Source: Paracyclopina nana (lineage: Eukaryota; Arthropoda; Copepoda; Cyclopoida; Cyclopettidae). Taken from it: a stretch of DNA of 64,000 bases. Each line of letters begins with the position of its first letter. The stretch's first letter is position 1. The notes under the pieces were generated by a model. The model did not search any database and was not told where the DNA came from. It was given only the letters and a program-made list of their open reading frames with translations. Shown one piece after another: positions 1-52,577 of this stretch. Location: contig JAGUCH010000004.1 of assembly GCA_019096065.1 (NCBI GenBank), forward strand, positions 9,176,001-9,240,000, read 5' to 3'. The translations under genes were made by a program, and so were the position numbers.

Positions 1-1
1 T

Positions 2-18993: not shown

Positions 18994-21900
18994 CTGAAAC
19001 AACAATCAAAACAAACGCATTTCAAAATACTAAGAAACCATGGCAAGAAATGTGCTGAGAAGCTCCATCAAAGTACTTATAAACTAGTGCCAAAATCTAG
19101 GATCTCAAAAGGAGGACTGTAATTCCATATATTAAAATATTATAAAATAATGAGAACCTTTGTTCAAATTATGAGAAGAGAAAAAAATGCTGAGAAGATT
19201 AGATGAAGCTTTGCCACAAAACTGAGAGGCTCTCTAAAAATGCTGAGATGGTGCTATAAAACTAAAAAGAAGGTGTACACAAGTACTGAGAAGCTGTATG
19301 CAAGTACTGAGAAGCTGTACGGAAGTACTGAGAAGTTGTACGCAAGTATTGAGAATCTATACTGAGAAGGTACATAAAAATACTGAGAAGCTTGATTTAA
19401 ACACTCAGAAGGTAAATGAAAATACTGAGAAGGTAAATAAAAATACTGAGAAGGTAAATAAAAATACTGAGAAGCTTGATTTCAATACTGAGAAGCTTGA
19501 TTTCAATACTGAGAAGCTTGATTTCAATACTGAGAAGCTTGATTTCAATACTGAGAAGGTAAATAAAAATACTGAGAAGCTTGATTTCAATACTGAGAAG
19601 GTAAATAAAAATACTGAGAAGCTTGATTTCAATACTGAGAATGTAAATTAAAATACTGATAATCTAAATAAAAATACTGAGGAGGTACATTAAAATACTT
19701 AGAATCTAAATTAAAATACTGAGAAGGTACATTATAATAGACTCCTCATTCATAACAATAACAATCAACTAGCGAGGCAGCTATCGGACGTTAGTCATCA
19801 AAATAGTAGGTGAAAATCTTGTCATTGAGGGATCGAGATACTACTACTTTTTAATTTTGCCTTAAAAAAGGTACATCGCCTTTATTCAATTTTCGCCTAC
19901 GTTACGACCCGAATTTTTCCGCTAGGCGTCGCTCGAATGTTTTGAATGAGGAGTCAATACAGAGAAGGTAAATTAAAATACTGAGAAGCTTGATTTAAAT
20001 ACGGAGAAGGTAAATTAAAATATTGAGAAGCTTGATTTAAATAAAAATACTGAGAAAGAAAATTAAAATACTGAGAAAGAAAATTGAAATACTGAGAAGC
20101 TTATCAAAATTCTGAAATGTTATTTTAAAAATGCATTTTATGATATAGTGAGAATCTATTTTAAAAGTACTAAAAAGCTCAATACATATGCTAAAAAGCT
20201 TAACAAAAAATACTGAGAAAGCATTATAATTATGTTGAGAAACGCAACAAATTATTCTAAAAATACTGAGAAGCTCAATGGCATTACTGAGAAGCTCAAT
20301 GACATTACTGAGAAGCTCAATGACATTACTGGGAAGCTCAATGACATTACTGAGAAGCTCAATGACATTACTAAGAAAGTGTCACAATAATAATAAGAAG
20401 CACAAAAACAATGTTGAGAAACTATTATAAATACTGAAATCCTATGAAAAAATGTCAATAAACTATTATAAAAATAATGAATAGGCAAGTTTCAATGCTG
20501 AGAAGCTCAACAAAAATACTGGAAAGCTCAATTAAAATACTGAGATGCTAAATTAAAAATACTGAGAAGGTAAATCAAAATACTGAGAGGCTCAATAAAA
20601 ATGCTAAAAAGCTCAATAGAAATACTGTGAAGCTCAATCCAAATGCTGAAAAGTTCCCTTAAAATACTGAGAAGGTTTCATAAAAGTGCTGATTATTTTC
20701 TGTAAAAGTACTGAGAATCTCAATAAAAACAGATAAAAGGTTAATATTAAGTTCAATGAAAATACTGAGAAGCTATACCTAATACAGATAAACTCTATCA
20801 AAATACTGAGTAACTGATTTGATAATTAGCCCAAATACATTGAAGACTGTATTATCTACCTTTGTCAAAATCTCTTTTCTTTTTCTTCTTTTTGATCCTC
20901 TCAGCTGTGGTCTCATCCACAACTGAGTATCCATGATCTCCAACAAAACCTCCATTTGGAATTCCTCCATCTAGAAAAAGCAAGTTAAAAAAGAAAAGGG
21001 AAGATGAAGAAAATTGCAATTACTTCTAAGATGCTTAGCTCTGTCCTTTGAGCTTGGCACCAGATAAGTCTCATCTCCAGAGCTACCAGACTCAGACTCA
21101 ATGGTGCCCAAATTGAAGTCAAAATCCAGAGGATTGAACTTTGGTCCACCGCTGAGAATGTTTTTCTTGCTTCTTTTCCTCAAAAAGAGCTCATGGTGCA
21201 TTTCCTCTCTAGTTTTCCTTGGAGGTCTCTCTAAAAAGGGGAAAAAAGAGAAACTAGGTAAAGGCGTCCATAAATGGACAGCGGGGGGCGGGCCTACGGT
21301 TTTGAGCAAAAGTTTGTACTAATTTTGTACCATCATAATTATTTTTCTCTACCAGTAACCAAAAATCCCTGATAAGGTTTCAATTTCTAGATAGTTCTTA
21401 GTTTATTTCTCTTCCAAGGCTAGCACATAATAGGGAAAAACGAAATGAAAACAAAAATATTGGGAAAAAAATTTGACCAGGGGAATCTTCTCATCTTCTT
21501 TTGAAGTTGATATTGGGCTACTTTTTTAGTCTGAATAGCCCTTGCAGTCTTAAGCAGCCTCAATTGACAGTCTTAAGCAGCCTCAATTGACAGTCTAGAG
21601 CAGCCTCAAATTATCAGTCTTGAGTGGCCCAAGATTATGATATGCTCATGCTAGATGCTAAATGTATAAGGTGAGCTCCATGCGCTAGCACGTCATCGGA
21701 CTATACTATTGTAGTGTAGTAGGTCGAGATATACTGCTGTGACTTATCAAGCCACTACTCGGATCTAGGCTACGTCTGACGGGGACGGGCCTGTAAGGCT
21801 AGCAGAGGTCAATACTGGGCCGCAGACAACATGTGTCCATGTGGTTTATTCCTTTTACTGATGATACTACTACACTACTCAATATACTACGGCGCGCAGC

Positions 21901-24900
21901 GAGCGGTCGACCTGTAGGCCGACCGGCTCCCTGCTACAGTAGGGTGCAGGACGAAATTTTTATTTAAATCTGTGGATTTTTCTTTGTGTTAGAATATATG
22001 GATTCAAAATTATCCCCAAGAACCCATAAAAACAGCCACAATCTATTTTATGAAGAGCTAAAGTTTGAAAAAGGCTGGTAACGCTTTCAGGCATGTGATG
22101 CAAGCGAGCGTGAACGCTCACTCTCAAACTGGTTTATCCAGTTCTTGTATTTGAATTTCGCGATATTTTTATGTACTAGCGCCACTGAAGCGCTCCCTAG
22201 GGGAGGACAAAATAACTATCATAGTTTTGTGATTCAAAAGTAGAATGGTTCCATCAGGATTGCTCGTTAGAGATGCCCCTGGAGTGGCCTTAATTTTTAG
22301 TCTTGAGTGGCCTTAATTTGTAGTCTTGAGCAGCCGCAATTTACATCTTGAACAGCCTCAAATTACTGTCTTGAGCTGCCTCACTTTGTGGACTTGGGTG
22401 GCCTCAATTTTTACTTGGGTGGCGTCAATTTGTAGTCTTGAGCAGCCACAATTTGCGCCATGAAAAGTCCAAATTCTAGCAATTTGTGGTCTTGAACAGC
22501 CTCACTTTGTTGTCTTGAGCAGCCACAACTCATAGTTTTGAGCAGCCCTGTAAGAAGTCTAGAACAGCTTCAAGTTACAGTTTTAGTTTTATATCATTGG
22601 TTAAAAATGTGCGATGCAAAATTGCAATCGCCACATGGCGTCAATCGGCAGTGGTTCAAGTTCAAACTCAGTCTTGGTATTGAGCTAGAAGTAGAAGTGG
22701 GCGGCTGTACTTGGATCGACTTGGACGTACTTTCCTTGGATAGACTGCAACTGATCGCCCTTGGATAGACTGCAACTGATCGCCCTTGGATAGACAGACA
22801 GAACTCATAGTCCCTTGATTGACAAGACGGATCATCCTTGGATCGACTATGAAGACAAACAGTCCTTAGATCAATGAAACGAATAGTCTTTGGATTGACT
22901 ACTATGACTTGGTGACAAGGTGAAACAAAGGCCAAATAAGCGCCTAGTCAAAAATCGCAATTCTGCTCAAGCAATTATTCACATTTCTCGATCTGATTTT
23001 TTGACCAGAAGGTAGCAAGACTTGTCGATGCAAATACAGTATGTTTTCCCAATATGACCAAGGCTGATTTGTCCCGTTGATGCAAGTGCTACCCATCTTT
23101 TGTCTATCCAAGATAGTCCTCTAAATTGTCACAAATTAGGATGTTCCATAATACCGTCTGACTGTTCAAAATTGGACAGTGTGGGAATCAAAAGTTTGTG
23201 TTATGAATTCATGAATTTTGTGGATTAATGGGCATCAATGGAAAGCTAGAACCTTTGGACATCTTTTTTGTGTTATGACAAAAAAAAGTATTATTATAAA
23301 TTCCGCGTGACATCAAAAAATAAATGATGCATCAGTTTTTTCGTGACAATTTTCTGGGTTGTCTTGGGAAAATTGAATTTTCCCGGCTTTTTCCTCTTTC
23401 GATTGATTTTTTCTACTTTTACAAAAATGAAGGAAAAAGGCTCAATCTTTCCAATGATATCATTTAAAAGTCCTGTATTTCTTGAATATCTGACAAAAGT
23501 TAAGATTCCCGTACCGTCCAATTTTGAACGGACAGACTGTATATGGCCGCATGAATAATTATAAAGTAACATTCTGTGCTACATCAGGCTACATGGGCCC
23601 ACACATAATGTCACATAGCATTATGTCCCATAGCATTTTGTCTCATAGCATTATGTCCCATAACAAATTGTCACAAAGCAAATTGTCGCATAGCATATTG
23701 TCACATAGGCATTTGTCACATAACATATTGTCTCATGGCATATTGTCACATAGCATAATGTACCATAGCATGTTGGCTCATAGCAAATTGTCACATAGGC
23801 TTTTGTCTCGTAGCATATTGTTTTATAGGATATAGTCCCATAGCATAATGTCTCATAGCATAATGTCTCATAGCATAATGTCTCATAGCATAATGTCACA
23901 AAGCATAATGTCTCATACCATATTGTCACATAGCAAATTGTTACACACATAGCATTTTGGCTCATAGCATAATGTCTCAAAGTGTATTGGCACACAGCCA
24001 ATTCTCACATAGCATAATGTCTCATAGCATATTGTCACATAGCAAATTATAAAATAGCCAATTTAACTAAACATGCTAATAGGCATATTGTCTCATATCA
24101 AATTGTCACATAGCATTATATCCTATGAGACAATTTTCAAGGTGACAAATGCCTATGAGACAATTTGCTATGTGACAAATGCCTATGAGACAATTTGCTA
24201 TGAGCCAATATGCAATGGACATTGTGCTATGTGACAATATGCTATGAGACAATATGCTACGAGACAATATGCTATAAATTGACAAAACAGAACTGTCCTT
24301 GGATCGACTGCTCTGATGTAGAAGAGTTCTTGGATTTGCATTTAAAACATAGTCTATGGATGGGCTAGAAGGATGGACATGATTTGCCACCCGTAAAGAT
24401 ACTATGTTATTCTAGTCTATCCAAGGATGATAGTGAACAGTATCATTACAAAAACATGCCATCAGCCTACAATTTAGTAGAATCACTTAAGGGCAAAAAT
24501 GATACTTATAAAAGTTATGGGGAATGCAAAATTAGGGCTCCACGCAAAAATTCACTTCATTTGGCCAAGGCCTGCTGGAGATATTGGAGATATACTAAAA
24601 ATGCTTATAAAAAAGTAAACCTTGGGGGTCCGAATCAGAAAAAAGTCATTAATTCAAATTGTAGCCCTGACAAATGGGAGCTGTACACAAAATTTCAACT
24701 CATTTTGTTTCATGAGAGCAGAGAAAAATAGAAGTCTGTCATTTGGTGGAAAAAAATGGCCCAAATAAAGATCCATTCCACCCACTCCGTAATTACTATG
24801 TAATGACAAGCCTACGGCCTGCTCTAAAGTGTTCAATTAAGTAGCAGATAATTTGATTCCGCTAAATGTGGAGGGTGGGCCTTCGGCCCACTCCCTAATT

Positions 24901-27900
24901 ACTATGTAATGGCAAGCCTAAGGCCTGCCCTAAAGTGTTTTATTAAGTAGCAGATAATTTGATTCCGCTAAATGTGGAGGGTGGGCCTTCAGCCCACTCC
25001 ACAATAACTATGAAATGGCAAACCTTTGGCATACCATTGAAGCATCATGTTAATTGGCAGGCCTAAGGCCTGCCATAAAGTGTTCAATTAAGTAGCAGAT
25101 AATTTGATTCCGCTAAATGTGGAGGGTGGGCCTTCAGCCCACTCTACAATTACTATGTAATGGCAAACCTATGGCATACCATTGAAGCTTCATGTTAATT
25201 GGCAGGCCTATGGCCTGCCCTTAAGTGTTCAATTAAGTAAGTAGCAGATAAAATTGATGATTAAGTATGTGTCTCAGGTGGCTCACTGGTAGAGTGTCCG
25301 GCTGCAGAACAGACTGTACCTGGTTCAAATCCCGCTAGGGTCAGAGAAATTTTTCCATTTTTCTGGATCACAATTTACTTCCTGGTCGATATCCTGGTAC
25401 AGTTTCCTGTCTGGAAATTGGATCCTGACGTAGGTCACAGCGAAATGTGGGGGGCGGGCCTTCGGCCCGCCCCCCAAAAATGCTTAAAATTGAGTAAAAA
25501 AGGGAAAATATTTACCTTTTCCCATCATGTGTGGATCACCTCCAATGAAAGCTGGCTGATCTTGCCCTGCCAATTGAGTGGTTGGCACTGGCCTGGAAAA
25601 CAGGAGAAATGTGAGGAAAGTGGCATTTTCACAAAGGTTTTGGCTAGAATACGTGCTATAAGTCTGTAGACTGCACAACTGACATAATGAGTTGCTTCTT
25701 TCACTTTACAAGCTAGATGTATGATAATGTTTAGTTTTATGTACAATTGGTATATAGCATATATATGTAATATAGGTAGTTGAAGCCCTATAAACTGTGC
25801 ACTCGCTACATTGTAAAATAAGGCTGGAAAGCTGGCTTTCCACTTGGCTTTCCATTTCCAAAATGAAATGAATATTTTCGGCTTTGGATATATGCTTTCC
25901 TTTGTGGATTATTATCACACATTTTAAGGCTTTCCAATTTTTAGGCTTTCCATTTATACAGCTTTCCAGCCCCGCAAGCTATGGTAAAGTGCTCGGATAA
26001 AAAGGAGAACATGAATAGCCCATCTTTTTTTGCATTTTTTTCACTCACTGAGAGGCTAGCAATTGTTGCTCCAACATCCTGAAATGAAAACCTCAGAGTC
26101 TCATTTGTTTGTTTTTGATGTGGTGAAAGAGTATTTTGCTGCATGTAGAAGAGGGCAGAACGGAAACTGAAGTTATGTTTGAGTCTCTAGAGTCCTATGG
26201 CTTTCCAGTTGTTCCGAGGGCTTTCCAGTAAGTCACATTTCTTTCCAATCAAAACTTTGACTTTCCAGTCATTCTTAGTGCTTTCCAGTTGGTCCAGTGT
26301 CTTTCAAGTCAGTCTTGGTTCTTTCTAGTCAATACTGTGGCTTTCCTATCATTCTTAGGGCCTTCCAGTTAGTTCAATGTCTGTCAAGTCAGTCCTTTCC
26401 AGTCGATACTGACGATTTCCAGTCATTGCGACTTTTATTTAAACCCTAAGGCTTTCCAACCATTCCTACAAGTCACGGGGCTTTCCGCTCTTATAAATGT
26501 CCTGTATGTCCTAGGGCTAGATTTCCAGTCTCCTTAAATACTTTCAAGCTATTCCATGGGCCTTTCAATAACTGCTTTCCAATTATTGCTCTCGAAAAAA
26601 TGCTTTCCAGTAATCCTAGGGGCTTTTTAAACTCTTATGAAGCTTTCCAGCCCTAGTCATTCCTTTGGGCTTAACTTACGTAGATAGGGCTTTCCAGTCT
26701 CTTAAGTACTTTCAAGTTATTTCATGGGCTTTTCAATAACTGCTTTCCAGTAATCCTAAGGGGCTTTTTAGACTCTAATGAAGCTTTCCAGCTCTAGTCA
26801 TTCCTTTGGGCTTACCTTAGGTAGATAGGGCTTTCCAGTCGCTTTATTCTATACAACCCTATGTTTTCTCATTGTAGTGATTCCTAAGGCTTTCTAAAAT
26901 TGGAACTTTTTATGCATTCCTTAGGCTTTAGGGGTTTCTAGCAAGTAATTGGACAAATTTCACTTTCCAGCTTTAGAACTTTCCACTCCTAAGACTTTCC
27001 AGAATGTATGTCCTTGGGCTTTCTAGCACAACCTGGTTTCTGGGCTATTCCCAAAAGGGCTATGACGCAGGTCCTAGTTACTTCAGTCATAATAAGTCGA
27101 GTAATACAGTCATTGGACTTTCCAATCATTGGCTTTCCAATGGAACCCTGCGCCGTCCAATCCTGGCTTTCCTTATTTTTGGTGAATAGAGTTTTTTTGA
27201 TGAAGGACAGAACAGTTTTTGGGAAGTTTGAGTCACTTTTTCACTTTTTTGCTGTGAGAATATATGTACATTTTTGGGTGATTTTTTTTTTTTGGTTTTT
27301 TATGCTTGTTGTTGTAGGTACAGAGTTGCCAGATAAGACACCACAAAAGTGGCACTTACTCATTCTTTGAAGGGGAATCTAGACCTTCTCTTTTCTTTTC
27401 GCCTGTTATCGTGCTGAAAAGGGCTTTGAATCGTTATCATAAAGAGCAATTTAGCATCAAGTTTCAACAAGAAACGTGATTCCCCTCTAAGTAGAAAAAT
27501 AGGAAAAAAGGAAAAGAAAAAACTTACGAGACATCATAGCCTTTCGCCTTCTTTTTCCTTCCAGCTTTTGGAGTGGCAGCCTCGTCATGAACCCACATTT
27601 CTCTTCGCAAATCATCACCAGTGATTTTCCTCTTTTTCAAATACCTAATGACTGTTTTGCCAGTTTTCTGAAAAGAAAGAAGAAGAAAAATTCAAGATAA
27701 AGGCATGAAAGAAAAAACAAGTAAAATCGGAAAAAGATATAAGAGAAAATGAGAAATAAGGAGGAACAAGAGTAAGTGGGAGGAGAGGGAAAAGAAAAAA
27801 GGAAAGAAAGAAGTAGAAAAACAGTAGGAACAAAGAGGAAAACAGAGGTAAATAGGAAAATGGCAATAAAGAAAAAAGAGTGAAAAGAGGAAAATTGCAA

Positions 27901-30900
27901 GAAAGAGGAAAAGAGCGAGAAAGAGGAAAAGAGCGAGAAAGAGGAAAAGAGTTAGAAAGAGGAAAAGAGCAAGAAAGAGGAAAAGAGTCAGAAAAAGGAC
28001 AAGAGAGAGAAAGAGGAAAAAAGAGATAGAAAAAGGAAAATTGCAAGAAAGAGGAAAAGAGAGAGACAAAGAAAGTGAGAAAGAGGAAAAGAGAGAGAAA
28101 GAGGAAAAGGTAGAGAAATAAGAGATAAAACAGAAAAGAGAGACAAATAGGAAGATAAAAAGAAAGAGGAAAAGAGCGATAAAAAGAAAAAGAGCACGAA
28201 GAAAGAAAATTTAAAGATAAAAAGAGAGAAAAAGAGGAAAAGGTTGAGAAATAGGAAAACGAGATAAAGAGGAAAGAAAGATTAATAGGAAAAGAAAAGA
28301 AAGAGGAAAAAAGCAAAGAAGTTGGAAAAGAAACCAAGGAATGAGGAAAAGAGAATTAGAATGTAGAACTACATTGAGAAAGACTGAGGAAAAGACTTCA
28401 TGAAAAAGGAAAAGGACTCTAACCTTCCAGTTGGATAAAGCACCTTTCCTTTGGGAAGCTCTTGTTTTATCTTTGCTCTTGATGACCATGACACCTCTCT
28501 CAGTTTTCCCTAGACGAATGCTGTACTTCTCCAGGTACTCCTTGGCTGTTCCAGGTGGGACACTTCTCTCCATGCTCATAATGATTTTAGCCCACTGAAA
28601 AAAAATCATAATAGTAATATTACAAATACAGATCCTGAAGAGAGATGCAAACCATTTTCAAGAACTCCTTTTCACTCTTCTCATTGACAGCTGCATAAGT
28701 GTTGCCCATCATGGCAATCAACATGTTGAACAGCAGGATTGGAATGAGGATTTGGAAGAGGACAAAAATCCCCTTGGCCATGTCAGGGTAGGGAGAATCG
28801 TTGAACTTGTCATACTCATATTCACCCAAGGTCATGTGGAACAGGCCAACCCAAGTTGTGTGGTAGCCTTTGTACAGTCCAGGATCATCCACACCCTTCA
28901 TGACAAAGTAGAAGGCTTGGGTGAAGCCAAACAGGAAAATGATGTAAATGATGCTGAAGGTGAACATGTCTCCCACAATCATGGCATAGATCATGGTCAC
29001 AAATGGACCTGTCAGCTTAATTGCCCTGAAAAGCAACAAATTGTTTCATTATTTTGATAAAAGGACATAAGAAAAATGTGGAACACATAAGAATTTGGGC
29101 TCATTGAAGCTACAGAACATTAGGGACCTTGGGACTTATAGATCTTAATACCAATGGATCTTACAGCCTTAAGACCTATTGACCAAATCCACTTTTGATC
29201 TAAGAGCCTCAGAGGTTATATAAGAACCTTTAAGAGCATGGTGCTTTAGGTCCAAGAAGCTTTTTGCTTTTTAAAGACCTTTGATACTAGTGATTTGGGC
29301 TAATGGACCTTACAGCGCCTCATGAATTACAGCCTAAGGATTTAAGAGCCTATGACATCAGCACCCAAAGTAGACCTAAGTGCCTTTATACCTTAGCAAC
29401 TGAAAACCTTAGTAACTAAGTACCTAAGTACCTTATGTCCTTAGTAACTAAGTACCTAACCACCTAATGTCCTTAGCAACTAAGTACCTAATCATGTAAT
29501 GTCCTTAGCAACTAAGTACCTAAGCACCTAATGTCCTTAGCAACTAAGTACCTAACCACCTAGTGTCCTTAGCACCTATGGACCTTAGCGATTGAGGATC
29601 TTAAAGCCCTAGAACTTTGGAGCATAGATCTTAGAGCCTAAGAATCTTGGAGCCAAAGGATTTAAGAGCTGAAGGAACTTAAAGCCTAAGGATCTTAGAA
29701 CCTGAGGATCTAAGAGCCTTAGTATCTTAGAGCCTTGGTATCTAAGAGCTTTGGTATCTAAAAGCCTTGGTATCTAAGAGCCTTGGTATAATGACCCAAC
29801 AGCCTAATGTCCTAAAAGCTCTCAATCCTTTTACTAGTGGTACCAATCATCAAATAAACTAGAACCTAATGAGAAATGACCAATTACCTTCAATCCTAGA
29901 AACTAGAGGCCAATAAATTAGTATCAAGAAATTAAGAACCAAGACTCAAGTACCAAGAACAAAATGCCCTATAACCTAATGCCCAAATATCCTTAGGACC
30001 AAGAATCTAGAGATACATAACCTTAAGATCAAATAATTTAGGAATAAGAATTAAATTTGCAAGAGCCTTGGCAGGTTCTGTGCTGCAGTAAGTTTCATGA
30101 AATGTCTTACCCGCAAAAGAAAATGAGGTAAAACCAGGAGCCAGGCACAGCAAAGACCAAAAAGGCCTCTTCCACAATTCTGTACTTGGCCTCATTGGCT
30201 GGGTCAAACATCATCAATCTGGCAGGAACACAAAACAAGAACAGGAAATTGCAAACCACAAATATCAACTTGGGTGGAGTGCCTTTCTGAAAGTAATACC
30301 AAATTGTTGACAAGGTTTTAAGCAATTTTTACAGCTAGCTCTTATCATTACCAGATTCCTGTAAAAACTGTTGATTCCTGAGTTCTTAATTTCTTCGCCT
30401 TGTTGAATGATCAAGTAAGCCAAGCAACCTAAGACAAAAGCAAATTCAAGCTATTTTCTAGGCATTTTTCCCATCTCACATGTCTACAATTGGCTTGTAA
30501 TAAGTTCTTTAGTTCAAAATCTACTCATACATATAAATATTTTTTTTGAGAAAAATATTTCAAGCTTGAATACCTTTTCAAAAGCTTTTTGATATAGTTG
30601 ATACCTTCCTAAAAAGAAATATCCTTAAAAGTTGACTAAGGCTTATTTTAGGGCCATAATTTTTGAATAAACTGGTTAAGTCTAAGCTAGAATTAGCCTT
30701 TTTTGGCATAATATCGTGTTAAAATATCATCAAATTGAAGTGTGTCTTTACACATATTGAGGCAGATATTTTGGCAAAATATCGATATTTCTATGTAAGA
30801 TTAACTTTTACTAAATGCTCAAGCCAATTTTGGACAGTTGAAGTGAAAAAAATCATTGTGAATTGGCTTGAAGTTGCTGTTTTCGCGTAATATTTGCTCA

Positions 30901-33900
30901 TAATATCGCTTAGGATATTACCTAAAATGGTGGCGATTTCAAAGCAGTATCTTGTAATGTCAGTCCCAGTAATATCATCGGTGTCTTCCCTGATTCCGGA
31001 TAAAAGGCTGTTTTCCCTATCTGGCCTTGAATAGATGGCCACACTGATGCAAATCAGGTGAAACAAACAAATCACCAGCCTTTTGATGAAGAACATTTGT
31101 GCAAAGGTTGTCCACTTTTCCTCCAGCAATTTGGCAATAATTCCACCCTCAAGCATGTTCAAGTGCTCCTCCTTTTTCCCTAGATTTAAAAAATGTAAGC
31201 AAAAAATATTTTATGACCATTTTACGAAAAATTAGAGGGATGTAAACTACTTTATAGCCCTAGATTATTTTTACCATTTTTGAAAAATTAGAGGGATGTA
31301 AACTACTTTACAACCCTTGAGTTTATGCCTGAATTTCAAAAATGTCAACAAATCAAGGGATGTAAATTACTTTACAATCCCAGGTTTTTCCAAAGGACAT
31401 AAAGTAACTTAACATTTTCTATTTTACACCATGCACAGAAGAATAAACTAAGACATTTTTCAAACATCTATCTATCTATTATCAGATAATTTTGACAGCA
31501 AGTGGCCAAAAAGGTAACAATAAGTGCCAAAATATGACTTCTTATTTTTCCAATTTCCAAGGCAACTTGATACATTAATTGTCTGTCAATGGCCAAAAAA
31601 TATCTAAAAGAGCCAATAAAATTCTCAAAAAAGCCAAATAATGCCCAGGAGAGCCTAAATGAGGCTATTTTGTTACCTGCCAAGATGATCATCATTGCTG
31701 ATCCCCAATTGGTTTCTCCATCTGGTTGGATGGAATCCAGAGCTCCCAATGGATAAGCTGAGCAACAAATGTTGGAATACCGCCAAAACTCTTTGCAACT
31801 CAGCTCCAACATTTCGCGGAACAAATCGTCCCTGCCCAGCTTGCAGGACAAGGTTAGACAGGTTAACTGAGCGTTGTTCCTTATGTACTGATTGCAGGAG
31901 TGAATTGGATGCCTGAAAAATGTGAAATGCAACTCAAGGTCTGCAGGATAAACCCTGATCAGGTTCCATGTTGCCAGCAAGGTTTTTCAAAGGTTTTTTG
32001 CTGTTTTTACCACAAACCTTGCTCCTTTTTATACTCAAACTTTGACATAACTATGTTTATACAGCAATAAACCTGGCTCTGGCTATTTCATGAAAGAACC
32101 TTGCTATTTCATGAAAGAACCTTGCTATTTCACGAAAGAACCTTGCTAGTTTTTATGAAAAAACCTTGCTATTTCATGAAAAATCTTACAATTTCATGAA
32201 AACCTTGCTATTTTATGAAAAAACATGCTATTTCATCAAAAAACCTAGAAAGCACAAGCCTTACCGATTCAAACCTCAAAACCCCATCATTGAATTTTCT
32301 TTACAAACCTCTTCGACTTGAAGCAAAACCCCACATCAAATCTTCTTGGTATTTCACTCAGGAACCTTGTCATAGTACCTTGCTGGTAGTAATCAATTTA
32401 TCAACAGATGATTCCTGAGGGCACATCCAAACCATTTGGTTTGCCACCACCATCATGTGGAGGACATTGATGCCAAAGCAGTCTTGAGCATCCAGAATAG
32501 ATCTAATCTGGATGCTGTAAACCTTGCTATTTCGCAAACAAACCTTGCTATTTCAAAACTAGCAATGTCTCACAAAAACCTTTGTTGTGTCAATGTTTCA
32601 AACTTTGAAAACCCATCAAACTAGACTTGAATTTTCTTTGCTAACCTCATAAACTTGAATCGAAAGGCCCTCAAACCTTGTTATTTCACGCAGGAACCTT
32701 GTCATACCTTACTGGTAAGTAATCAGTATGATCATACCTTAGTGCATAACCAAACATGCCCATTTGGTTGGCCACCACCACCATGTGGAGAACCGTGTTG
32801 CCAAAGCAGTCTTCAGCATCCGGATTAGATCTAATCTGGATGCTGTAAACCTTGCTATTTTGCAAACAAACCTTGCTATTTCAAAACTAGCAATGTCTCA
32901 CAAAAACCTTTGTTGTGTCAATGTTTCAAACTTTGAAAACCCATCAAACTAGACTTGAATTTTCTTTACTAACCTCATCAACTGGAATCAAAAGGCCCTA
33001 AAACCTTGTTACTTCTCTCTGGAACCTTGTCATACCTTACTAGTAATTAATCAGTATGATCATACCTTAGTGCATAACCAAACTTGCCCATTTGGTTGGC
33101 AAACACCACCATGTGGAGGACCGTGTTGACTAAGCAGTCTTGACCATCCAGAATAGATCTAATCTGGATGCTGGAAACCTTGCTACTTCGCAAACAAACC
33201 TTGCTATTTCAAAACTAGCAATGTCTCACAAAAACCTTTGTTGTGTCAATGTTTCAAACTTTGAAAACCCATCAAACTAGACTTGAATTTTCTTGTCAAA
33301 TCTCATAAACTTGAAGCGAAAAGCCCTCAAACCTTGCTACTTCTCTGAGGAACCTTGTCATACCTTACTGGTGAGTAATCAGTATGATCATACCTTAGTG
33401 CATAACCAAACATGCCCATTTGGTTGGCCACCACCACCATGTGGAGGACAGTGTTGCCAAAGCAGTCTTGAGCATCCGGATAAGATCTAATCTGGATGCT
33501 ATAAACCTTGCTATTTCACAAACAAACCTTGCTATTTCAAAACTAGCAATGTCTCACAAAAACCTTTGTTGTGTCAATGTTTCAAACTTTGAAAACCCAT
33601 CAAACTAGACTTGAATTTTCTTTGCGAACCTCATAAACTTGAATCGAAAGGCCCTCAAACCTTGTTATTTCACTCAGGAACCTTGTCATACCTTACTGGT
33701 AATTAATCAGTGTGATCATACCTTAGTGCATAACCAAACATGCCCATTTGGTTGGCCACCACCACCATGTGGAGGACCGTGTTGCCAAAGCAGTCTTGAG
33801 CATCCGGATTAGATCTAATCTGGATGCTGTAAACCTTGCTATTTTGCAAACAAACCTTGCTATTTCAAAACTAGCAATGTCTCACAAAAACCTTTGTTGT

Positions 33901-36900
33901 GTCAATGTTTCAAACTTTGAAAACCCATCAAACTAGACTTGAATTTTCTTTGCCAACCTAATAAACTTGAATCGAAAGGCCCTCAAACCTTGTTATTTCA
34001 CTCAGGAACCTTGTCATACCTTACTGGTAAGTAATCAGTATGATCATACCTTAGTGCATAACCAAACATGCCCATTTGGTTGGCCACCACCACCATGTGG
34101 AGGACCGTGTTGCCAAAGCAGTCTTGAGCATCCGGATTGGCTCCCCTCTGGAGGAGGGCGTTGTACACGCCCTCGTTGGAGCTGCAGGCCGCCCAGCTCA
34201 GCGCGTACTCGCCCAGGTAGGCGAGGCCCTCGTAGTTGGTCTCCTTTTTGGGCTTGTCATGCTGCTGATCGGTGGGCAGGAAAAAGGTGCCCCTTGCCCT
34301 GATGTTGATGTTGACACCGCAGTCAATGATGGCCTGGGCCAACTCATCGTTGCCATAGGCGATGGCCAGGTGAAGACCTGTGGCACCAAGGTACTCCTCA
34401 CCCTCGATCATGTCGATGGCGGCCCGCGGGTAAACCTTGAGCAGGATCCGGGCAATCTTGGTGTGCACCATTGTGTCACAAATGATGAGGATGTGCAACA
34501 GGCTCTCCCCTAGCGGAGGTTTTTGGCATTACAGAGTACATTTTTACTGTTGCTGCTACAGTTCCTACTTTCTTGTCGAGATAAAGTTTGTTTCCTTTTT
34601 ATTTGAGAGTTTGTATTGGCTTTGAGGAATTAAGTTTGTTTAGATTATGTGGAAAGTCTGTTTACTTTTTGTTGAAAGTTTGTTTACTTTTTGTCGAAAG
34701 TTTGTTTACTTTTTGTTGAAAGTTTGTTTACTTTTTCTTGAAAGTTTGTTTACTTTTTCTTGAAAGTTTGTTTACTTTTTGTTGAAAGTTTGTTTACTTT
34801 TTGTTGAAAGTTTGTTTACTTTTTGTTGAAAGTTTGTTTACTTTTTGTTGAAAGTTTGTTTACTTTTTGTTGAAAGTTTGGTTACTTTTTGTGGAAAGTT
34901 TGTCAACTTTTTGTTGAAAGTTTGGTTACTCTTTGTGGAAAGTTTGTCAACTTTTTGTGGGAAATTTGTTTACTGTTTTTGGAAAGTTTGTTTATTTTTT
35001 AAAAAAAGATTGTTTACTTTTTGTGGAAAGTTTGTATACTTTTTGTAGGAACCTTAGGAACTTGTAGGAAACATTGTTTACTTTTTTCTCAGAAAAGTTT
35101 GTTTACATTTTTTGGAAATTTTGTTTCCTTTTGTTGGAAAGTACTATGTTTACATTTTGCGGAAAGCTGGTTCAGTTTTAAAAGCGGAAACTATGTTTAC
35201 TTTTTTTGGAAAGTTTTTCTTTTTTTTTGTGGAAATTTTACTTTTTGTGGAATAAAGTTATGTTTCATATTGTGGAAAGTTTGTTTTCACTATTTCGAAA
35301 GTTTGCATATTTTTGTGGAAAGCTTGTTTACTTTTTGTGTAAAGTTAGTTTAGTTTTCGATAAAAATCCATTATTTTGTAATTAAAGCATCTTTTCTTCT
35401 TCAAAAAGAGTTTCTTAACTTTGTTTTTGATGTAAAAAGTGTCCCTTATTTTTCTGTCAAAGAAATGTCAATTTTTACAAAAGTTTGTTCATTTAAAAAA
35501 AAGTTTGGTTACTAGCAAAATTTAAGTTTGTTTACATTTTTAAAAAGATGGTCTAAGTTGATTTTCAGCGCAACATATAGAAGACTTTGTTTACAAACAA
35601 TAAAATGCGCGCGCAATTGAGATGAGTGAGCGCGCTCGCGACAGCTGACATCTTTGTTTACTCACCTAAAGATCCTCTGTATTGCATTCTCCAGCAAGCT
35701 TCGTGGTCCTCCCAAGAATAAAGTGGGTCATATTTGGACATTTTGTCATTGCTTCCAATTTCAATCTGGCAAAAATAATCCATTAAAAAATATCATTTAA
35801 AAATTCAGCAAAAACAACATTGAAATATTTGTCTTGAATAGCTTTTTTTCCACTGTAAATCATGCAATTGCAATTGTCTTCTGTTTTTGGGGTCACATTA
35901 TGAAATTAAGGCAGTTGATGAAAAGAAGCACTGGCAAATCTCAGTTTCAGTGCTACTTTCACTCATCTTCTGCTCTCAAAAATTGTTTTGCTGTCATTTC
36001 CCAACTTTTTTATTCTATGTCTTCTTACCCTTTGATCCTGAGCAAAAGTGTAATACATAATATTATGAGGTTTATACAGACAAAGGGCCTGTTCACCTGC
36101 TTATTATAGCCGTTATTTTGGCAAAATATTGGAGAGGAATACTGAGAAACTGAGAATTTTATTTTTGGTGTAGGATGGCTTTTGGTACCAATATATCGAT
36201 TCCGAAGTCAAAATCTGAAAAATGATCTTACTAATACCGGATTTTTGCAAATATCAGCATAATATCGCGCGTTATTTTGCTGATAATATTGCAGGTGAAC
36301 AGGGCCAAAGTCTACTTTGTTTACTTTCTTTAAGGTCAAATTCAACATTAAAAAATATATTTGCTACTGTTTCATTGTATTTACTTACTTTTTGGTTATT
36401 CCTGAATTTCCACCTGAGATATTCAGTTTTTGTGATGAATTCACCCTTGCCATGGTTGTACATCATAAATCCAATTTTGGACTTGAAAAAGTTCTCAACC
36501 TTGAAATGGCAAAAATTTCACTTGATTATTCCCAGACATCAATTTCATTAAAAAGTAATTTTTTAAAAAAGCTTATTTTTCTTTTCAAAAAATAAAAGAA
36601 AGACCCTTCAAAAATTAGGTTTCAATTTTGGTTTGCTTCGCTCTATCTATAAGCATATAGACGTCCATAGTCAACTTTTAATTTCATCTGCTCGATTAAT
36701 CCAAGGCAAATAACAAAATTAGCTTGTAAATACGTGATATAAGGACATTTTTTAGCATTAAAATGAACTACTTATCAGAAAATAGACGTCCAAAGTCAAC
36801 TTTTCATTCTGTCTACTCGACTAATCCAAGGCTAATAACAACATTAGCTTGTAAATAGGTGATTTATCGACATTTTTCAAAATTAAAATCAACTACTTTT

Positions 36901-37248
36901 AAGCAAATAGGCGTCCAAAGTCAGATCTTAATTCGAGCCACTCGACTAATCCAAGGCAATTAACAAAATTAGCTTGCAAATTGATGGTACATGGACATTT
37001 TTCAAAATTAAAATTAACTACATATAGGCAATTAGAGGTCCAAAGTCAACTTTTAATTCTAGACACTCGATTAATCCAAGGCATCTTACCCCTTTGGAGC
37101 CTCCTTTATTGAACTGATCCACCAATTGGCCACCCTTTTTGAAGTTGGCCAAATTGTAGAGGATACAGGCTGGTTCAGCATTTGCCACCACCCTGTCCAA
37201 AACTGCCCCAGGGTTGAAGGGCTCGCCCCTTCTGCAGCAATTGCCCAT
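18791..37248 (-). CDS. TRPV channel (Nanchung/Inactive/OSM-9 class)
   Basis: Fourteen exons, 915 residues, phases closing exactly: 37248-37090, 35765-35666, 34509-34050, 31912-31677, 31179-30922, 30428-30352, 30286-30111, 29025-28653, 28594-28424, 27667-27528, 25592-25516, 21230-21024, 20970-20860, 18993-18791. The N-terminus MGNCC could be acylated. Exons 2-4 code ankyrin repeats ([68 protein letters not shown]). Exons 5-8 code S1-S6 with [14 protein letters not shown], pore TLGEYEYD and S6 [15 protein letters not shown]. Exon 9 has [10 protein letters not shown]. Exons 10-14 form a basic tail that ends in a Glu/Lys-only run. The class forms mechanosensory and chemosensory cation channels in cilia. 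Most long introns hold a private tandem repeat. Confidence 0.92.
19060..20790. repeat. TACTGAGAAG minisatellite in TRPV intron 13
   Basis: Imperfect tandem units around AAAATACTGAGAAGCTCAAT and AATACTGAGAAGGTAAAT, period near 20-21 bases, fill almost the whole 1.9-kb intron. It is interrupted at about 19735-19955 by a 220-base non-repetitive piece. Long open frames here on both strands are products of the repeat and not genes. Confidence 0.9.
21711..21942. mobile_element. solo LTR of the element-B family inside composite copy 1
   Basis: The LTR occupies 21715-21938 (224 bases), TGTAGTAGG to CCCTGCTACA, flanked by a 4-base duplication GTAG (21711-21714 and 21939-21942). It matches the LTR at 7757-8001 over most of its length. 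No internal retroelement sequence remains, so it arose by recombination between two LTRs. Confidence 0.85.
22260..22570. repeat. TCTTGAGCAGCC-type degenerate tandem repeat in composite copy 1
   Basis: Units such as AGTCTTGAGCAGCCACAATT, 20-24 bases, repeat about 12 times with variation; a shorter block with the same phrase lies at 21545-21630, on the other side of the solo LTR. The same blocks are in copy 2 at 48635-48720 and 49350-49660. Confidence 0.75.
23154..23539. mobile_element. mariner-type MITE nested in composite copy 1
   Basis: A 386-base unit with imperfect terminal inverted repeats of about 36 bases (sharing GTTCAAAATTGGAC and GGGAATC), flanked by TA at 23152-23153 and 23540-23541. 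Read from the right the tip is CAGTCTGTCCG, the CAGT start seen in many Tc1/mariner elements. No transposase is coded. The same insertion is at 50241-50626. Confidence 0.7.
23590..24275. repeat. 15-base CATAGCATAATGTCT repeats, with inverted block
   Basis: About 35 units of the type CATAGCAAATTGTCA run to about 24115; from about 24120 to 24270 the same phrase appears on the opposite strand (TATGAGACAATTTGCTATG). The two blocks can pair as a large hairpin. Copy 2 of the composite has one more 15-base unit than copy 1. Cys/Tyr-rich open frames here come from the repeat alone. Confidence 0.9.
24770..25255. repeat. iterated hairpin units at the right end of composite copy 1
   Basis: The phrase GCTAAATGTGGAGGGTGGGCC, then TTC(G/A)GCCCACTCC, occurs at about 24860, 24970 and 25115, each a palindrome of about 10 bp per arm, separated by AATTACTATGTAATGGCA and GGCCT(A/T)AGGCCTGCC palindromes. 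They look like older versions of the terminal GC hairpin at 25449-25475, as if end modules had been added stepwise. Confidence 0.75.
25271..25347 (+). repeat. tRNA-derived (SINE-like) unit in composite copy 1
   Basis: An A-box-like TGGCTCACTGGTAGAG at 25279-25294 and a B-box GGTTCAAATCC at 25322-25332, about 30 bases apart as in tRNA genes, with TGCAG in the middle where a GCA anticodon would sit. Acceptor and anticodon stems do not pair well, so it is not a working tRNA but could be an RNA polymerase III promoter. Copy 2 has lost two bases in the A box. Confidence 0.5.
25700..27185. repeat. GGCTTTCCAGT degenerate repeat in TRPV intron 10
   Basis: The phrase GGCTTTCCAGTCATTCCTA and variants, about 20-30 bases each, recurs through roughly 1.4 kb, with a larger duplication of about 170 bases (26520-26660 and 26680-26835 share GCTTTCCAGTAATCCTAAGGG). 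No coding is seen. Confidence 0.8.
27675..28400. repeat. polypurine GAAAGAGGAAAAGAG tract in TRPV intron 9
   Basis: About 700 bases with almost only A and G on the plus strand, in units such as GAAAGAGGAAAAGAGC (about 16 bases). Since the gene runs on the minus strand, the transcript here is pyrimidine-rich. Open frames on the minus strand (Phe/Leu/Ser) are by-products. Such tracts can form triplex (H-) DNA. Confidence 0.9.
29095..30000. repeat. CCTTAGCAACTAAGTACCTAA repeat in TRPV intron 7
   Basis: A regular core at about 29390-29570 with a unit near 33 bases (ACTAAGTACCTAACCACCTAATGTCCTTAGCA), grading into looser CCTTAGAGCC-type phrases on both sides. It fills almost the whole intron. Confidence 0.85.
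31220..31390. repeat. GGGATGTAAACTACTTTACA repeat in TRPV intron 4
   Basis: Three imperfect units of about 55-65 bases sharing AGGGATGTAAACTACTTTA, close to the acceptor of exon 5. Confidence 0.7.
32060..32245. repeat. ACCTTGCTATTTCATGAAAGA repeat in TRPV intron 3
   Basis: About seven units near 21-23 bases. The same phrase ACCTTGCTATTTC also occurs twice in the intron part of each 328-base unit further right, so it is the left edge of that array. Confidence 0.8.
32410..32502 (-). pseudogene. decayed cassette exon, copy e
   Basis: The acceptor side and [12 protein letters not shown] coding are kept, but bases are missing near the 3' end and the GTATGATCA donor is gone, so this copy cannot be used as the others could. 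Confidence 0.6.
32738..32830 (-). CDS. candidate cassette exon, copy d
   Basis: Frame and splice sites intact; DAQD has become DAED and one change is silent. Confidence 0.5.
33066..33158 (-). CDS. candidate cassette exon, copy c (most changed intact copy)
   Basis: The frame and splice sites are kept, but several residues differ, e.g. [12 protein letters not shown] at the start, VVFANQ and MGKFG, so the protein would differ from exon 3 at about seven positions. Confidence 0.45.
33394..33486 (-). CDS. candidate cassette exon, copy b
   Basis: Same length and phases as copy a. One replacement (N to Y before PDAQ) and one silent change in NTV. Splice sites intact. Confidence 0.5.
33722..33814 (-). 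CDS. candidate cassette exon, copy a (nearest to TRPV exon 3)
   Basis: It codes (R)[17 protein letters not shown], continuing [13 protein letters not shown](R), identical to exon 3 from NPDAQ onward. Acceptor AG at 33816-33815, donor GT at 33721-33720. Whether it is spliced in is unknown. Confidence 0.5.
34640..35350. repeat. GAAAGTTTGTTTACTTTTTGTT minisatellite in TRPV intron 2
   Basis: About 10 almost perfect copies of a 22-base unit at 34655-34880, then looser copies (with GGAAAGTTTG) to about 35350. Confidence 0.95.
36655..37080. repeat. about 120-base repeat in TRPV intron 1
   Basis: Four units starting near 36660, 36782, 36905 and 37027 share GTC(C)A(A/T)AGTCAACTTTTAATT, ACTCGATTAATCCAAGGC and AACAAAATTAGCTTG. 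The last unit runs into the donor of exon 1. Confidence 0.85.
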
Positions 37249-37979
37249 TTTTCAGCACCTTTTGCCCATCTTATTTTTTCCCATTCAAAATGGCTGCTAT
37301 GCTGTCCTTTCTTCTGACTTGACTTGCTAGAAACGGCCTTGTGCTGGTAAAGTCACCATAGAAACAGAGCCAAGATGTTGTTGGTTCAATAAAAATGAGG
37401 ACAGCACAGCTTTTGTTGTTGATTTTCTACAGGGTGGATCCTTTTTCTTGACAGGGTGGCTCAAAATTCATTATTAATGATTTATGAGGTTTTAAAAACT
37501 TATAGACTTACTTATTTTTATCATTTTTCAAAGCTTAGTTTCTTTGCAAGATGGAACTCTTAATGTTTTAGCAAGACATATTGATTATTTTTAATAGAGT
37601 TTTTTTACTGATGATTTTCTTTTTTATGATTTTTTTTTGGGAAAAAGGTAATATAAAAACTATGACATATTGTGTTTCAAAGAAAATGTTTTGTTCAGAG
37701 AGAAAACCCATAACTAATGAGTCTATACAAAATGCAAGTTATTGCCCAATTTCCACATATTGATTGCATAGTGTGAATTGAATTTAGTCCAACTTCAAAA
37801 TTCAACAAAACATGGTCAACTTTTCATATTTAGTTTTAATTTTCATGGTAATTGCTTTTTTTATTGTAGATCTTAAAAGAAATAGAGCAAAGTTTTTTTT
37901 AGGTCATTCTGCCAAATTACAAACATTTGAGTGCCCAGGGTAAGAAAGACAGAGATAAAGAAATATTTGGTATACAATT
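37249..37979. promoter_or_regulatory. intergenic region between divergent TRPV and the 38-kb gene
   Basis: About 730 AT-rich bases without coding between two genes that point away from each other; any promoters of both must lie here or, for TRPV, be replaced by trans-splicing. I see no clear TATA box or other site to call. Confidence 0.3.
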
Positions 37980-48300: not shown

Positions 48301-48339
48301 ATCAGAAATTGATGGAATCACAGAAAGCCACAGCAAAAA
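45303..48339. other. intergenic DNA with a minisatellite at 46650-47215
   Basis: No supported gene. At about 46650-47215 the phrase AAAGTAATCTTAAGTC(T/C)TTCAGT recurs about 20 times (unit 18-24 bases). The stretch 47640-48340 is T-rich, with frequent TTTTAGCC/TTTTGGC words, and ends at the left tip of composite copy 2. Confidence 0.6.
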
Positions 48340-48797
48340 ACTAGGTAAAGGCGTCCATAAATGGACAGCGGGGGGCGGGCCTACGGTTTTGAGCAAAAGT
48401 TTGTACTAATTTTGTACCATCATAATTATTTTTCTCTACCGGTAACCAAAAATCCCTGATAAGGTTTCAATTTCTAGATAGTTCTTAGTTTATTTCTCTT
48501 CCAAGGCTAGCACATAATAGGGAAAAACGAAATGAAAACAAAAATATTGGGAAAAAAATTTGACCAGGGGAATCTTCTCATCTTCTTTTGAAGTTGATAT
48601 TGGGCTACTTTTTTAGTCTGAATAGCCCTTGCAGTCTTAAGCAGCCTCAATTGACAGTCTTAAGCAGCCTCAATTGACAGTCTAGAGCAGCCTCAAATTA
48701 TCAGTCTTGAGTGGCCCAAGATTATGATATGCTCATGCTAGATGCTAAATGTATAAGGTGAGCTCCATGCGCTAGCACGTCATCGGACTATACTATT

Positions 48798-49029
48798 GTA
48801 GTGTAGTAGGTCGAGATATACTGCTGTGACTTATCAAGCCACTACTCGGATCTAGGCTACGTCTGACGGGGACGGGCCTGTAAGGCTAGCAGAGGTCAAT
48901 ACTGGGCCGCAGACAACATGTGTCCATGTGGTTTATTCCTTTTACTGATGATACTACTACACTACTCAATATACTACGGCGCGCAGCGAGCGGTCAACCT
49001 GTAGGCCGACCGGCTCCCTGCTACAGTAG
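48798..49029. mobile_element. solo LTR inside composite copy 2
   Basis: LTR at 48802-49025 with the GTAG duplication at 48798-48801 and 49026-49029. Position, length and duplication are those of the solo LTR in copy 1, so the insertion is older than the spread of the composite. Confidence 0.85.
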
Positions 49030-50240
49030 GGTGCAGGACGAAATTTTTATTTAAATCTGTGGATTTTTCTTTGTGTTAGAATATATGGATTCAAAATTAT
49101 CCCCAAGAACCCATAAAAACAGCCACAATCTATTTTATGAAGAGCTGAAGTTTGAAAAAGGCTGGTAACGCTTTCAGGCATGTGATGCAAGCGAGCGTGA
49201 ACGCTCACTCTCAAACTGGTTTATCCAGTTCTTGTATTTGAATTTCGCGATATTTTTATGTACTAGCGCCACTGAAGCGCTCCCTAGGGGAGGACAAAAT
49301 AACTATCATAGTTTTGTGATTCAAAAGTAGAATGGTTCCATCAGGATTGCTCGTTAGAGATGCCCCTGGAGTGGCCTTAATTTTTAGTCTTGAGTGGCCT
49401 TAATTTGTAGTCTTGAGCAGCCGCAATTTACATCTTGAACAGCCTCAAATTACTGTCTTGAGCTGCCTCACTTTGTGGACTTGGGTGGCCTCAATTTTTA
49501 CTTGGGTGGCGTCAATTTGTAGTCTTGAGCAGCCACAATTTGCGCCATGAAAAGTCCAAATTCTAGCAATTTGTGGTCTTGAACAGCCTCACTTTGTTGT
49601 CTTGAGCAGCCACAACTCATAGTTTTGAGCAGCCCTGTATGAAGTCTAGAACAGCTTCAAGTTACAGTTTTAGTTTTATATCATTGGTTAAAAATGTGCG
49701 ATGCAAAATTGCAATCGCCACATGGCGTCAATCGGCAGTGGTTCAAGTTCAAACTCAGTCTTGGTATTGAGCTAGAAGTAGAAGCGGGCGGCTGTACTTG
49801 GATCGACTTGGACGTACTTTCCTTGGATAGACTGCAACTGATCGCCCTTGGATAGACTGCAACTGATCGCCCTTGGATAGACAGACAGAACTCATAGTCC
49901 CTTGATTGACAAGACGGATCATCCTTGGATCGACTATGAAGACAAACAGTCCTTAGATCAATGAAACGAATAGTCTTTGGATTGACTACTATGACTTGGT
50001 GACAAGGTGAAACAAAGGCCAAATAAGCGCCTAGTCAAAAATCGCAATTCTGCTCAAGCAATTATTCACATTTCTCGATCTGATTTTTTGACCAGAAGGT
50101 AGCAAGACTTGTCGATGCAAATACAGTATGTTTACCCAATATGACCAAGGCTGATTTGTCCCGTTGATGCAAGTGCTACCCATCTTTTGTCTATCCAAGA
50201 TAGTCCTCTAAATTGTCACAAATTAGGATGTTCCATAATA

Positions 50241-50626
50241 CCGTCTGACTGTTCAAAATTGGACAGTGCGGGAATCAAAAGTTTGTGTTATGAATTCATG
50301 AATTTTGTGGATTAATGGGCATCAATGGAAAGCTAGAACCTTTGGACATCTTTTTTGTGTTATGACAAAAAAAAGTATTATTATAAATTCCGCGTGACAT
50401 CAAAAAATAAATGATGTATCAGTTTTTTCGAGACAATTTCATGGGTGGCCTTGGGAAAATAGAATTTTCCCGGCTTTTTCCTCTTTCGATTGATTTTTTC
50501 TACTTTTACAAAAAAGATGGAAAAAGGCTCAATCTTTCCAATGATATCATTTAAAAGTCCTGTATTTCTTGAATATCTGACAAAAGTTAAGATTCCCGTA
50601 CCGTCCAATTTTGAACGGACAGACTG
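50241..50626. mobile_element. mariner-type MITE nested in composite copy 2
   Basis: Same 386-base unit and TA flanks (50239-50240, 50627-50628) as in copy 1, with a few substitutions in its middle. Confidence 0.7.
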
Positions 50627-50679
50627 TATATGGCCGCATGAATAATTATAAAGTAACATTCTGTGCTACATCAGGCTAC

Positions 50680-51378
50680 ATGGGCCCACATATAATGTCA
50701 CATAGCATTATGTCCCATAGCATTTTGTCTCATAGCATTATGTCCCATAACAAATTGTCACAAAGCAAATTGTCGCATAGCATATTGTCACATAGGCATT
50801 TGTCACATAACACATTGTCTCATGGCATATTGTCACATAGCATAATGTACCATAGCATGTTGGCTCATAGCAAATTGTCACATAGGCTTTTGTCTCATAG
50901 CATATTGTCTTATAGGATATAGTCCCATAGCATAATGTCTCATAGCATAATGTCTCATAGCATAATGTCTCATAGCATAATGTCTCATAGCATAATGTCA
51001 CAAAGCATAATGTCTCATACCATATTGTCACATAGCAAATTGTTACACACATAGCATTTTGGCTCATAGCATAATGTCTCAAAGTGTATTGGCACACAGC
51101 CAATTCTCACATAGCATAATGTCTCATATCATATTGTCACATAGCAAATTATAAAATAGCCAATTTAACTAAACATATCTAATATGCATATTGTCTCATA
51201 TCAAATTGTCACATAGCATTATATCCTATGAGACAATTTTCAAGGTGACAAATGCCTATGAGACAATTTGCTATGTGACAAATGCCTATGAGACAATTTG
51301 CTATGAGCCAATATGCAATGGACATTGTGCTATGTGACAATATGCTATGAGACAATATGCTACGAGACAATATGCTAT
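50680..51378. repeat. 15-base repeats with inverted block, composite copy 2
   Basis: Counterpart of 23590-24275 with one additional CATAGCATAATGTCT unit near 50940-51000. Confidence 0.9.
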
Positions 51379-52374
51379 AAATTGACAAAACAGAACTGTC
51401 CTTGGATCGACTGCTCTGATGTAGAAGAGTTCTTGGATTTGCATTTAAAACATAGTCTATGGATGGGCTAGAAGGATGGACATGATTTGCCACCCGTAAA
51501 GATACTATGTTATTCTAGTCTATCCAAGGATGATAGTGAACAGTATCATTACAAAAACATGCCATCAGCCTACAATTTAGTAGAATCACTTAAGGGCAAA
51601 AATGATACTTATAAAAGTTATGGGGAATGCAAAATTAGGGCTCCATGCAAAAATTCACTTCATTTGGCCAAGGCCTGCTGGATATATTGGAGATATACTA
51701 AAAATGCTTATAAAAAAGTAAACCTTGGGGGTCCGAATCAGAAAAAAGTCATTAATTCAAATTGTAGCCCTGACAAATGGGAGCTGTACACAAAATTTCA
51801 ACTCATTTTGTTTCATGAGAGCAGAGAAAAATAGAAGTCTGTCATTTGGTGGAAAAAAAATGGCCCAAATAAAGATCCATTCCACCCACTCCGTAATTAC
51901 TATGTAATGACAAGCCTACGGCCTGCTCTAAAGTGTTCAATTAAGTAGCAGATAATTTGATTCCGCTAAATGTGGAGGGTGGGCCTTCGGCCCACTCCCT
52001 AATTACTATGTAATGGCAAGCCTAAGGCCTGCCCTAAAGTGTTTTATTAAGTAGCAGATAATTTGATTCCGCTAAATGTGGAGGGTGGGCCTTCAGCCCA
52101 CTCCACAATAACTATGTAATGGCAAACCTTTGGCATACCATTGAAGCATCATGTTAATTGGCAGGCCTAAGGCCTGCCATAAAGTGTTCAATTAAGTAGC
52201 AGATAATTTGATTCCGCTAAATGTGGAGGGTGGGCCTTCAGCCCACTCTACAATTACTATGTAATGGCAAACCTATGGCATACCATTGAAGCTTCATGTT
52301 AATTGGCAGGCCTATGGCCTGCCCTTAAGTGTTCAATTAAGTAAGTAGCAGATAAAATTGATGATTAAGTATGT

Positions 52375-52448
52375 GTCTCAGGTGGCTCACTGGTAGTGTC
52401 CGGCTGCAGAACAGACTGTACCTGGTTCAAATCCCGCTAGGGTCAGAG
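52375..52448 (+). repeat. tRNA-derived unit in composite copy 2, A box damaged
   Basis: Same as 25271-25347 but with two bases lost from the A box (CTGGTAGTGTCC instead of CTGGTAGAGTGTCC). The B box GGTTCAAATCC is intact. Confidence 0.5.
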
Positions 52449-52577
52449 AAATTTTTCCATTTTTCTGGATCACAATTTACTTCCTGGTCGATATCCTGGT
52501 ACAGTTTCCTGTCTGGAAATTGGATCCTGACGTAGGTCACAGCGAAATGTGGGGGGCGGGCCTTCGGCCCGCCCCCC

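Follow-up and report, generated by a model that had tools for sequence, protein, structure and literature searches.

The window analysed here is a 64,000-nucleotide (nt) stretch of the 92-Mb genome of the copepod Paracyclopina nana, which is assembled in 10 contigs (contig JAGUCH010000004.1, positions 9176001-9240000). It carries, on the minus strand, the gene Inactive (Iav), which encodes a TRPV channel subunit. The end of an ankyrin-coding exon of Iav, E3, is repeated in tandem through the following intron with an exact period of 328 nt, and four of the copies have the appearance of in-frame cassette exons. Judged from sequence, this is probably a neutral, concertedly evolving intragenic tandem array that is mostly removed with the intron. 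We favour this interpretation because the exon copies are as variable as the introns, replacements occur at a neutral level and the acceptors are poor; because the ankyrin score gains little from copy 3, the terminal copy is defective and the relatives listed lack adjacent units; and because the gene region is rich in arrays and the groupings of the units conflict.

Architecture of the array

Each unit consists of the last 89 nt of E3 (34138-34050 on the minus strand) and the following 239 nt. The array starts with the unit of E3 itself, which is followed by four detached units and by a fifth that is incomplete and broken (Table 1). Tandem Repeats Finder (TRF) places it at 32432-34138 (period 328, 5.2 copies, 93% matches, score 3050), and a repeat search returns five 300-nt copies at exact 328-nt spacing, the four others being 92-96% identical to the reference copy. 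Together these confirm the 328-base copying of the exon end reported in a preliminary description of this DNA. With exon sequence lying head-to-tail in its own gene, the array is a tandem exon-segment duplication. No array unit was found elsewhere in the genome by a search that skips very common words: all matches are at the Iav locus. A paralogue exon was sought as an outgroup, and the three matches outside the array (35-46% identical) were too distant for this.

The four detached copies are each preceded by AG, followed by GT, 93 nt long and open in frame, with phase 2 at entry and exit; here the preliminary description was accurate, and its junction coordinates agree with ours. The exon parts of copies 1-4 differ from E3 at 0, 2, 8 and 2 nt, replacing 0, 1, 7 and 1 residues, respectively. 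Translation reproduces the replacements named earlier: N/Y in copy 2, M/K in copy 3 and Q/E in copy 4. Among the five in-register units, 38/328 columns vary, pairwise differences reach 29/328, and the intron parts have no indels.

Upstream of every detached copy, including the terminal one, the first 12 nt of that copy occur in near-identical, inverted form around AGATCT. RNA stretches of 81 nt over this near-palindrome have predicted folding energies of -22.2 to -27.9 kcal/mol (z -1.9 to -3.9, five copies). Of two controls, the start of the E3 tail reaches -28.2 kcal/mol (z -1.3), an energy lower than that of the copies, and the E4 acceptor -11.9 kcal/mol (z -0.01). The inverted snippet may have been templated at the original breakpoint. 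In the predicted hairpin, the AG of the 93-nt exon would lie near the tip and the AG of an alternative 105-nt exon at the foot, and folding would tend to hide both.

Tests for selection on the exon copies

We did not detect purifying selection on the exon copies, although the numbers are small: variable columns in the five in-register units make up 12/89 of the exon part versus 26/239 of the intron part (Fisher p=0.56), and the share of replacements is as expected without selection. By hand count, 9 or 10 of the 12 exon nt changes are replacements (two share one codon), versus 74-79% of all possible changes; binomial tests with 10/12 give p = 1.0 and 0.74.

Of the 261 single changes that are possible, 5 create a stop; 12 changes would thus pass without a stop with a probability of approximately 0.79, and open frames in the copies are expected anyway. 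Constant length of the exon copies says little either, since the intron parts are equally free of indels. Most likely the copies descend from a single event, and the phase match hence had to arise by chance only once. Nor is such a match hard to obtain: AGs farther upstream in unit 1 give exons of 105, 117 and 138 nt, starting at 33826, 33838 and 33859, respectively, and these are in frame and open, as is the 93-nt exon, which is one of four options.

Splice sites

Acceptors were scored with a small weight matrix built from eight or nine Iav acceptors, with the judged site or E4 left out. Among the 170 AGs of the scanned stretch, the E4 acceptor ranks 2nd, the four 93-nt sites 68th-115th (scores -4.0 to -1.0), the 105-nt sites 22nd-106th (-3.4 to +2.3) and the 117- and 138-nt sites 92nd-134th. 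The best-scoring AG is at 32244, where the model has no exon start. An AG-free stretch of 18-72 nt precedes 9/9 modelled Iav acceptors. In 5/5 copies, counting the terminal one, it measures 3 nt before the 93-nt site or 6 nt before the 105-nt site.

Several observations weigh against a neutral origin. The cassette donors are the same as the E3 donor. The acceptor of E3 itself, which necessarily works, scores -2.9, no better than those of the cassettes; since it is equally weak, acceptor strength, as far as it can be read from the DNA, argues against cassette use without excluding it. In addition, cassette splicing is more frequent among human exons whose AG-free zone is very short, according to the available text of one study (PMC1431707). 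Finally, when copies 1, 2 and 4 alone are compared with E3 (copy 3 omitted by choice), 4/267 exon positions differ versus 26/717 intron positions (p=0.097). This lower exon rate hints either at constraint or at conversion from E3; the two are inseparable here. For copy 3 alone the direction is opposite (exon 8/89, intron 12/239, p=0.20).

The preliminary description suggested that the copies could lengthen or swap one ankyrin repeat. The first part stands, as the 31 residues of a copy would repeat one ankyrin helix pair. The second does not: no GT exit was found in E3 between 34160 and 34121, just before the duplicated tail, and a clean exon swap was rejected on this ground, leaving only lengthening. 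For the same reason, parent and copy do not form a pair of mutually exclusive exons.

Ankyrin scores and relatives

Pfam scans covered the insertion of copies 1 and 3. Without an insert, Ank_2 scores 30.3 and Ank 30.8 bits. Copy 1 brings these scores to 42.7 and 38.6, respectively, and copy 3 to 28.2 and 32.0, the latter being almost no gain.

The relatives listed comprise 120 of 335 full-length matches and 120 of 186 short matches (query: copy 1 isoform), and the counts that follow refer to these. Two helix-A motifs within 70 residues, the mark of adjacent units, occur in 0/240. The junction from helix B to HP is contiguous in 120/120 full-length relatives and in 74/120 short matches, so that 194/240 read through in total. 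Another 40/120 short matches do not reach across it: 15 end or run on after ALR, 17 break before ALR and 8 are without helix A. In the other 6/120, ALR and HP are separated by a stretch of 19-31 residues that is not ankyrin, probably the in-frame translation of an intron that had not been spliced out. The continuation of some fragments past ALR suggests that other arthropods have an intron at the E3 end as well.

Some individual matches deserve mention. P0001, from a flea, has the helix-A motif twice, 353 residues apart; its N-terminal half is repeated, with a normal junction each time. Five short matches were flagged as having two modules and were rejected by eye, as they pair an earlier ankyrin repeat with the E3-tail repeat. 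In five fragments (P0179, P0190, P0202, P0205 and P0209), conservation along the frame ceases after NQM, eight codons short of ALR, which suggests a different intron position. The nearest fragment, P0159, is identical at 115/121 residues and stops at the E3 boundary; it is therefore uninformative on the array.

Probable turnover of the array

Four informative columns conflict in how they group the units: one joins copies 1 and 3, two join copies 2 and 3, and one joins E3 and copy 3. Such conflict is as expected under exchange or conversion, and recurrent mutation could also yield it. Copy 4, the full unit lying farthest from E3, resembles it as closely (6 differences) as does the neighbouring copy 1 (7 differences). 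TRF arrays, the 328-nt array included, cover 36% of 20900-37300, compared with 17.6% of the window and 5.1% elsewhere (a baseline for TRF coverage only, from 18 stretches totalling 180 kb at 1.0 and 4.0 Mb of nine contigs). The Iav gene is so rich in arrays that one starting in an exon could arise by chance.

The neutral interpretation can be put as a sequence of steps. The E3 tail and the head of the intron stand in tandem, and the inverted near-copy ahead of each copy supplies the AGs. Unequal exchange and gene conversion would have multiplied and homogenised the units. In most or all transcripts, E3 would be joined straight to E4 (34050/31912), and the array would leave with the intron. The cassettes may thus be readable mainly as a result of being young and homogenised, and not through use.

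Alternative explanations

The copies might instead be functional cassette exons, at least one of which is spliced in to add an ankyrin unit of 31 or 35 residues between the last E3 helix pair and the following loop, giving longer Iav isoforms. Frame, phase and an E3-type donor are intact in four copies, the insertion of copy 1 lifts the Ank_2 score, and complementary arms between units are present that could play docking and selector roles, a mechanism that the available text of PMC6071210 proposes for duplicated exons, although each unit also folds locally. Yet no sign of constraint was seen in the exon copies, copy 3 contributes little ankyrin score, the poor acceptors lie inside a predicted hairpin, and no listed relative has an adjacent double unit; we consider functional use unlikely. 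The same four shortcomings leave unsupported the idea of a variable ankyrin module, put forward in the preliminary description, whose other option, a neutral tandem expansion that happens to be in frame, is the better fit. It seems quite unlikely that this mechanosensory TRPV channel contains a young, still evolving series of ankyrin cassettes, in which a palindromic hairpin born at the duplication breakpoint controls access to the acceptors and the number of units differs between transcripts or individuals.

Splicing noise is very unlikely to be the explanation: the 33870- and 33932-type AGs would sometimes be used, and the 149 or 211 nt thereby added would act as poison exons with stops, lowering Iav output. 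In the units listed, the scores of these two AG types, 5.0 and 4.6-5.6, exceed those of the in-frame AGs, and unit 1 has stops in both frames; however, the matrix is built on just eight or nine sites, and the AG-free stretches are short there too (8 and 3 nt). A regulatory role in DNA or RNA, with the exon copies as passengers, would centre on a 104-nt intron block that is identical in five units while 38 other columns vary; 0/200,000 random placements of these 38 columns reach an invariant run of such length. Against such an element, the terminal copy does not keep the block (by eye), the block was not found outside the array in a search that skips very common words, and conversion would homogenise it too. 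Conversion is our first guess for the identity and a functional element our second, and a regulatory explanation of the array as a whole is highly unlikely. An assembly artefact that invented or misordered units, for which near-identical tandem units are a generally known hazard, is extremely improbable, given that the units differ from one another at 38/328 columns and that the array lies within a 9.7-Mb contig.

The Iav gene and its surroundings

The identification of the gene as a TRPV channel gene with an ankyrin domain, made in the preliminary description, is borne out and can be narrowed to Iav. The E3 frame is most similar to Inactive, chain B of PDB 9nvn (E=1.2e-67), followed by Nanchung (3e-32) and TRPV6 (7.3e-19), so that it is closer to Inactive than to Nanchung or vertebrate TRPV. 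The channel domain PF00520 is found on a later exon. The nearest database proteins to the modelled Iav are two unnamed ones (80% and 82% identity); among named proteins, those of Eurytemora and Lepeophtheirus, both copepods, share 70% and 68% identity, respectively. The top-scoring match is a flea protein with 57% identity, which owes its high score to an N-terminal half that occurs twice.

Table 1. Coordinates, within the window, of the array, its parts and the exons of Iav.
Feature	Position	Strand	Basis or remark
Inner part of Iav gene, modelled	28424..36499	-	9 exons, 654 codons, no stop; first and last exons outside model
Exon E3 of Iav, ankyrin repeats, parent exon	34050..34509	-	9nvn_B match; exon model continuous in frame
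Exon E4, expected splice partner of E3	31677..31912	-	Exon model
89-nt E3 tail, copied part; array start	34050..34138	-	TRF, unit alignment
Unit 0 (E3 tail and next 239 nt)	33811..34138	-	Unit alignment
Cassette copy 1, 93 nt	33722..33814	-	0/89 exon-derived nt differ from E3 tail
Cassette copy 2, 93 nt	33394..33486	-	N to Y and one silent change
Cassette copy 3, 93 nt	33066..33158	-	8 changes, 7 residues replaced (M/K among them)
Cassette copy 4, 93 nt	32738..32830	-	Q to E and one silent change
Terminal diverged copy	32268..32502	-	5-nt deletion; donor GT changed to GA; DNA match 74% over 32268-32512
30-nt near-palindrome across copy 1 acceptor	33799..33828	-	Inverted repeats; RNA folds
Near-palindrome equivalents	33471-33500, ~33143-33172, 32815-32844, 32487-32516	-	Inverted repeats
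104-nt intron block, identical in five units	33847..33950	-	Unit alignment
104-nt block, other units	33519-33622, 33191-33294, 32863-32966, 32535-32638	-	Unit alignment

Other tandem arrays lie between Iav exons at 36648-37083 (125-nt units), 34632-35357 (22-nt units) and 29389-29789 (16/32-nt units). The 328-nt array resembles Iav's other intronic arrays, which fill much of the gene region; unlike them, it begins in an exon, which gives each unit coding sequence and a donor. A C-terminal Iav exon, placed by eye at approximately 20971-21230, adjoins one copy of a 4.2-kb segment that is present twice (21251-25477 and 48338-52579; 98.9% identical, 27 kb apart, same orientation), one copy being within Iav.

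Elsewhere in the window, a 39-nt tandem duplication at 8578-8655 adds 13 residues to an open frame that matches ASC (DEG/ENaC) channels. A retrotransposon-like frame at 3867-6464 (Pfam reverse transcriptase, RNase H and aspartyl protease) sits in a GC-rich stretch (1-8000, 52-60% GC), the rest of the window being AT-rich. A PADLOC scan returned nothing beyond an ankyrin match and was uninformative.

Relation to known systems

The array is a case of tandem exon duplication, a phenomenon already described in the available text of PMC9013439: an exon is copied in tandem within its gene, complete with splice dinucleotides and frame. It departs from the duplicated exons of that account in that copying is confined to the tail of the exon, an inverted breakpoint snippet holds the acceptor AGs, and the exon copies are no better conserved than the introns. 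With Dscam-type mutually exclusive arrays, as presented in the available text of PMC6071210, it shares tandem copies with complementary arms that may compete; in contrast to these, the parent tail of Iav is not cleanly skippable, there is no exclusive choice, and the units pair locally over their own acceptors. In TRPV4 too, the N-terminal region of a TRPV channel is changed by splicing. The TRPV4 variants covered in the available text of PMC7830798 delete residues, and those of group II impair oligomerisation, whereas the Iav case concerns hypothetical insertions only. We found no literature linking TRPV, Inactive, ankyrin repeats and exon duplication all at once and, within the Nanchung/Inactive cryo-electron microscopy literature, no paper evidently describing 9nvn.

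The Iav array shows in nature how a tandem duplication with its start inside an exon can furnish the following intron with several proto-exons that are in frame and equipped with donors, and whose new acceptor AGs would come from an inverted snippet at the breakpoint. For channel biology, it would become relevant only if RNA shows that the copies are included.

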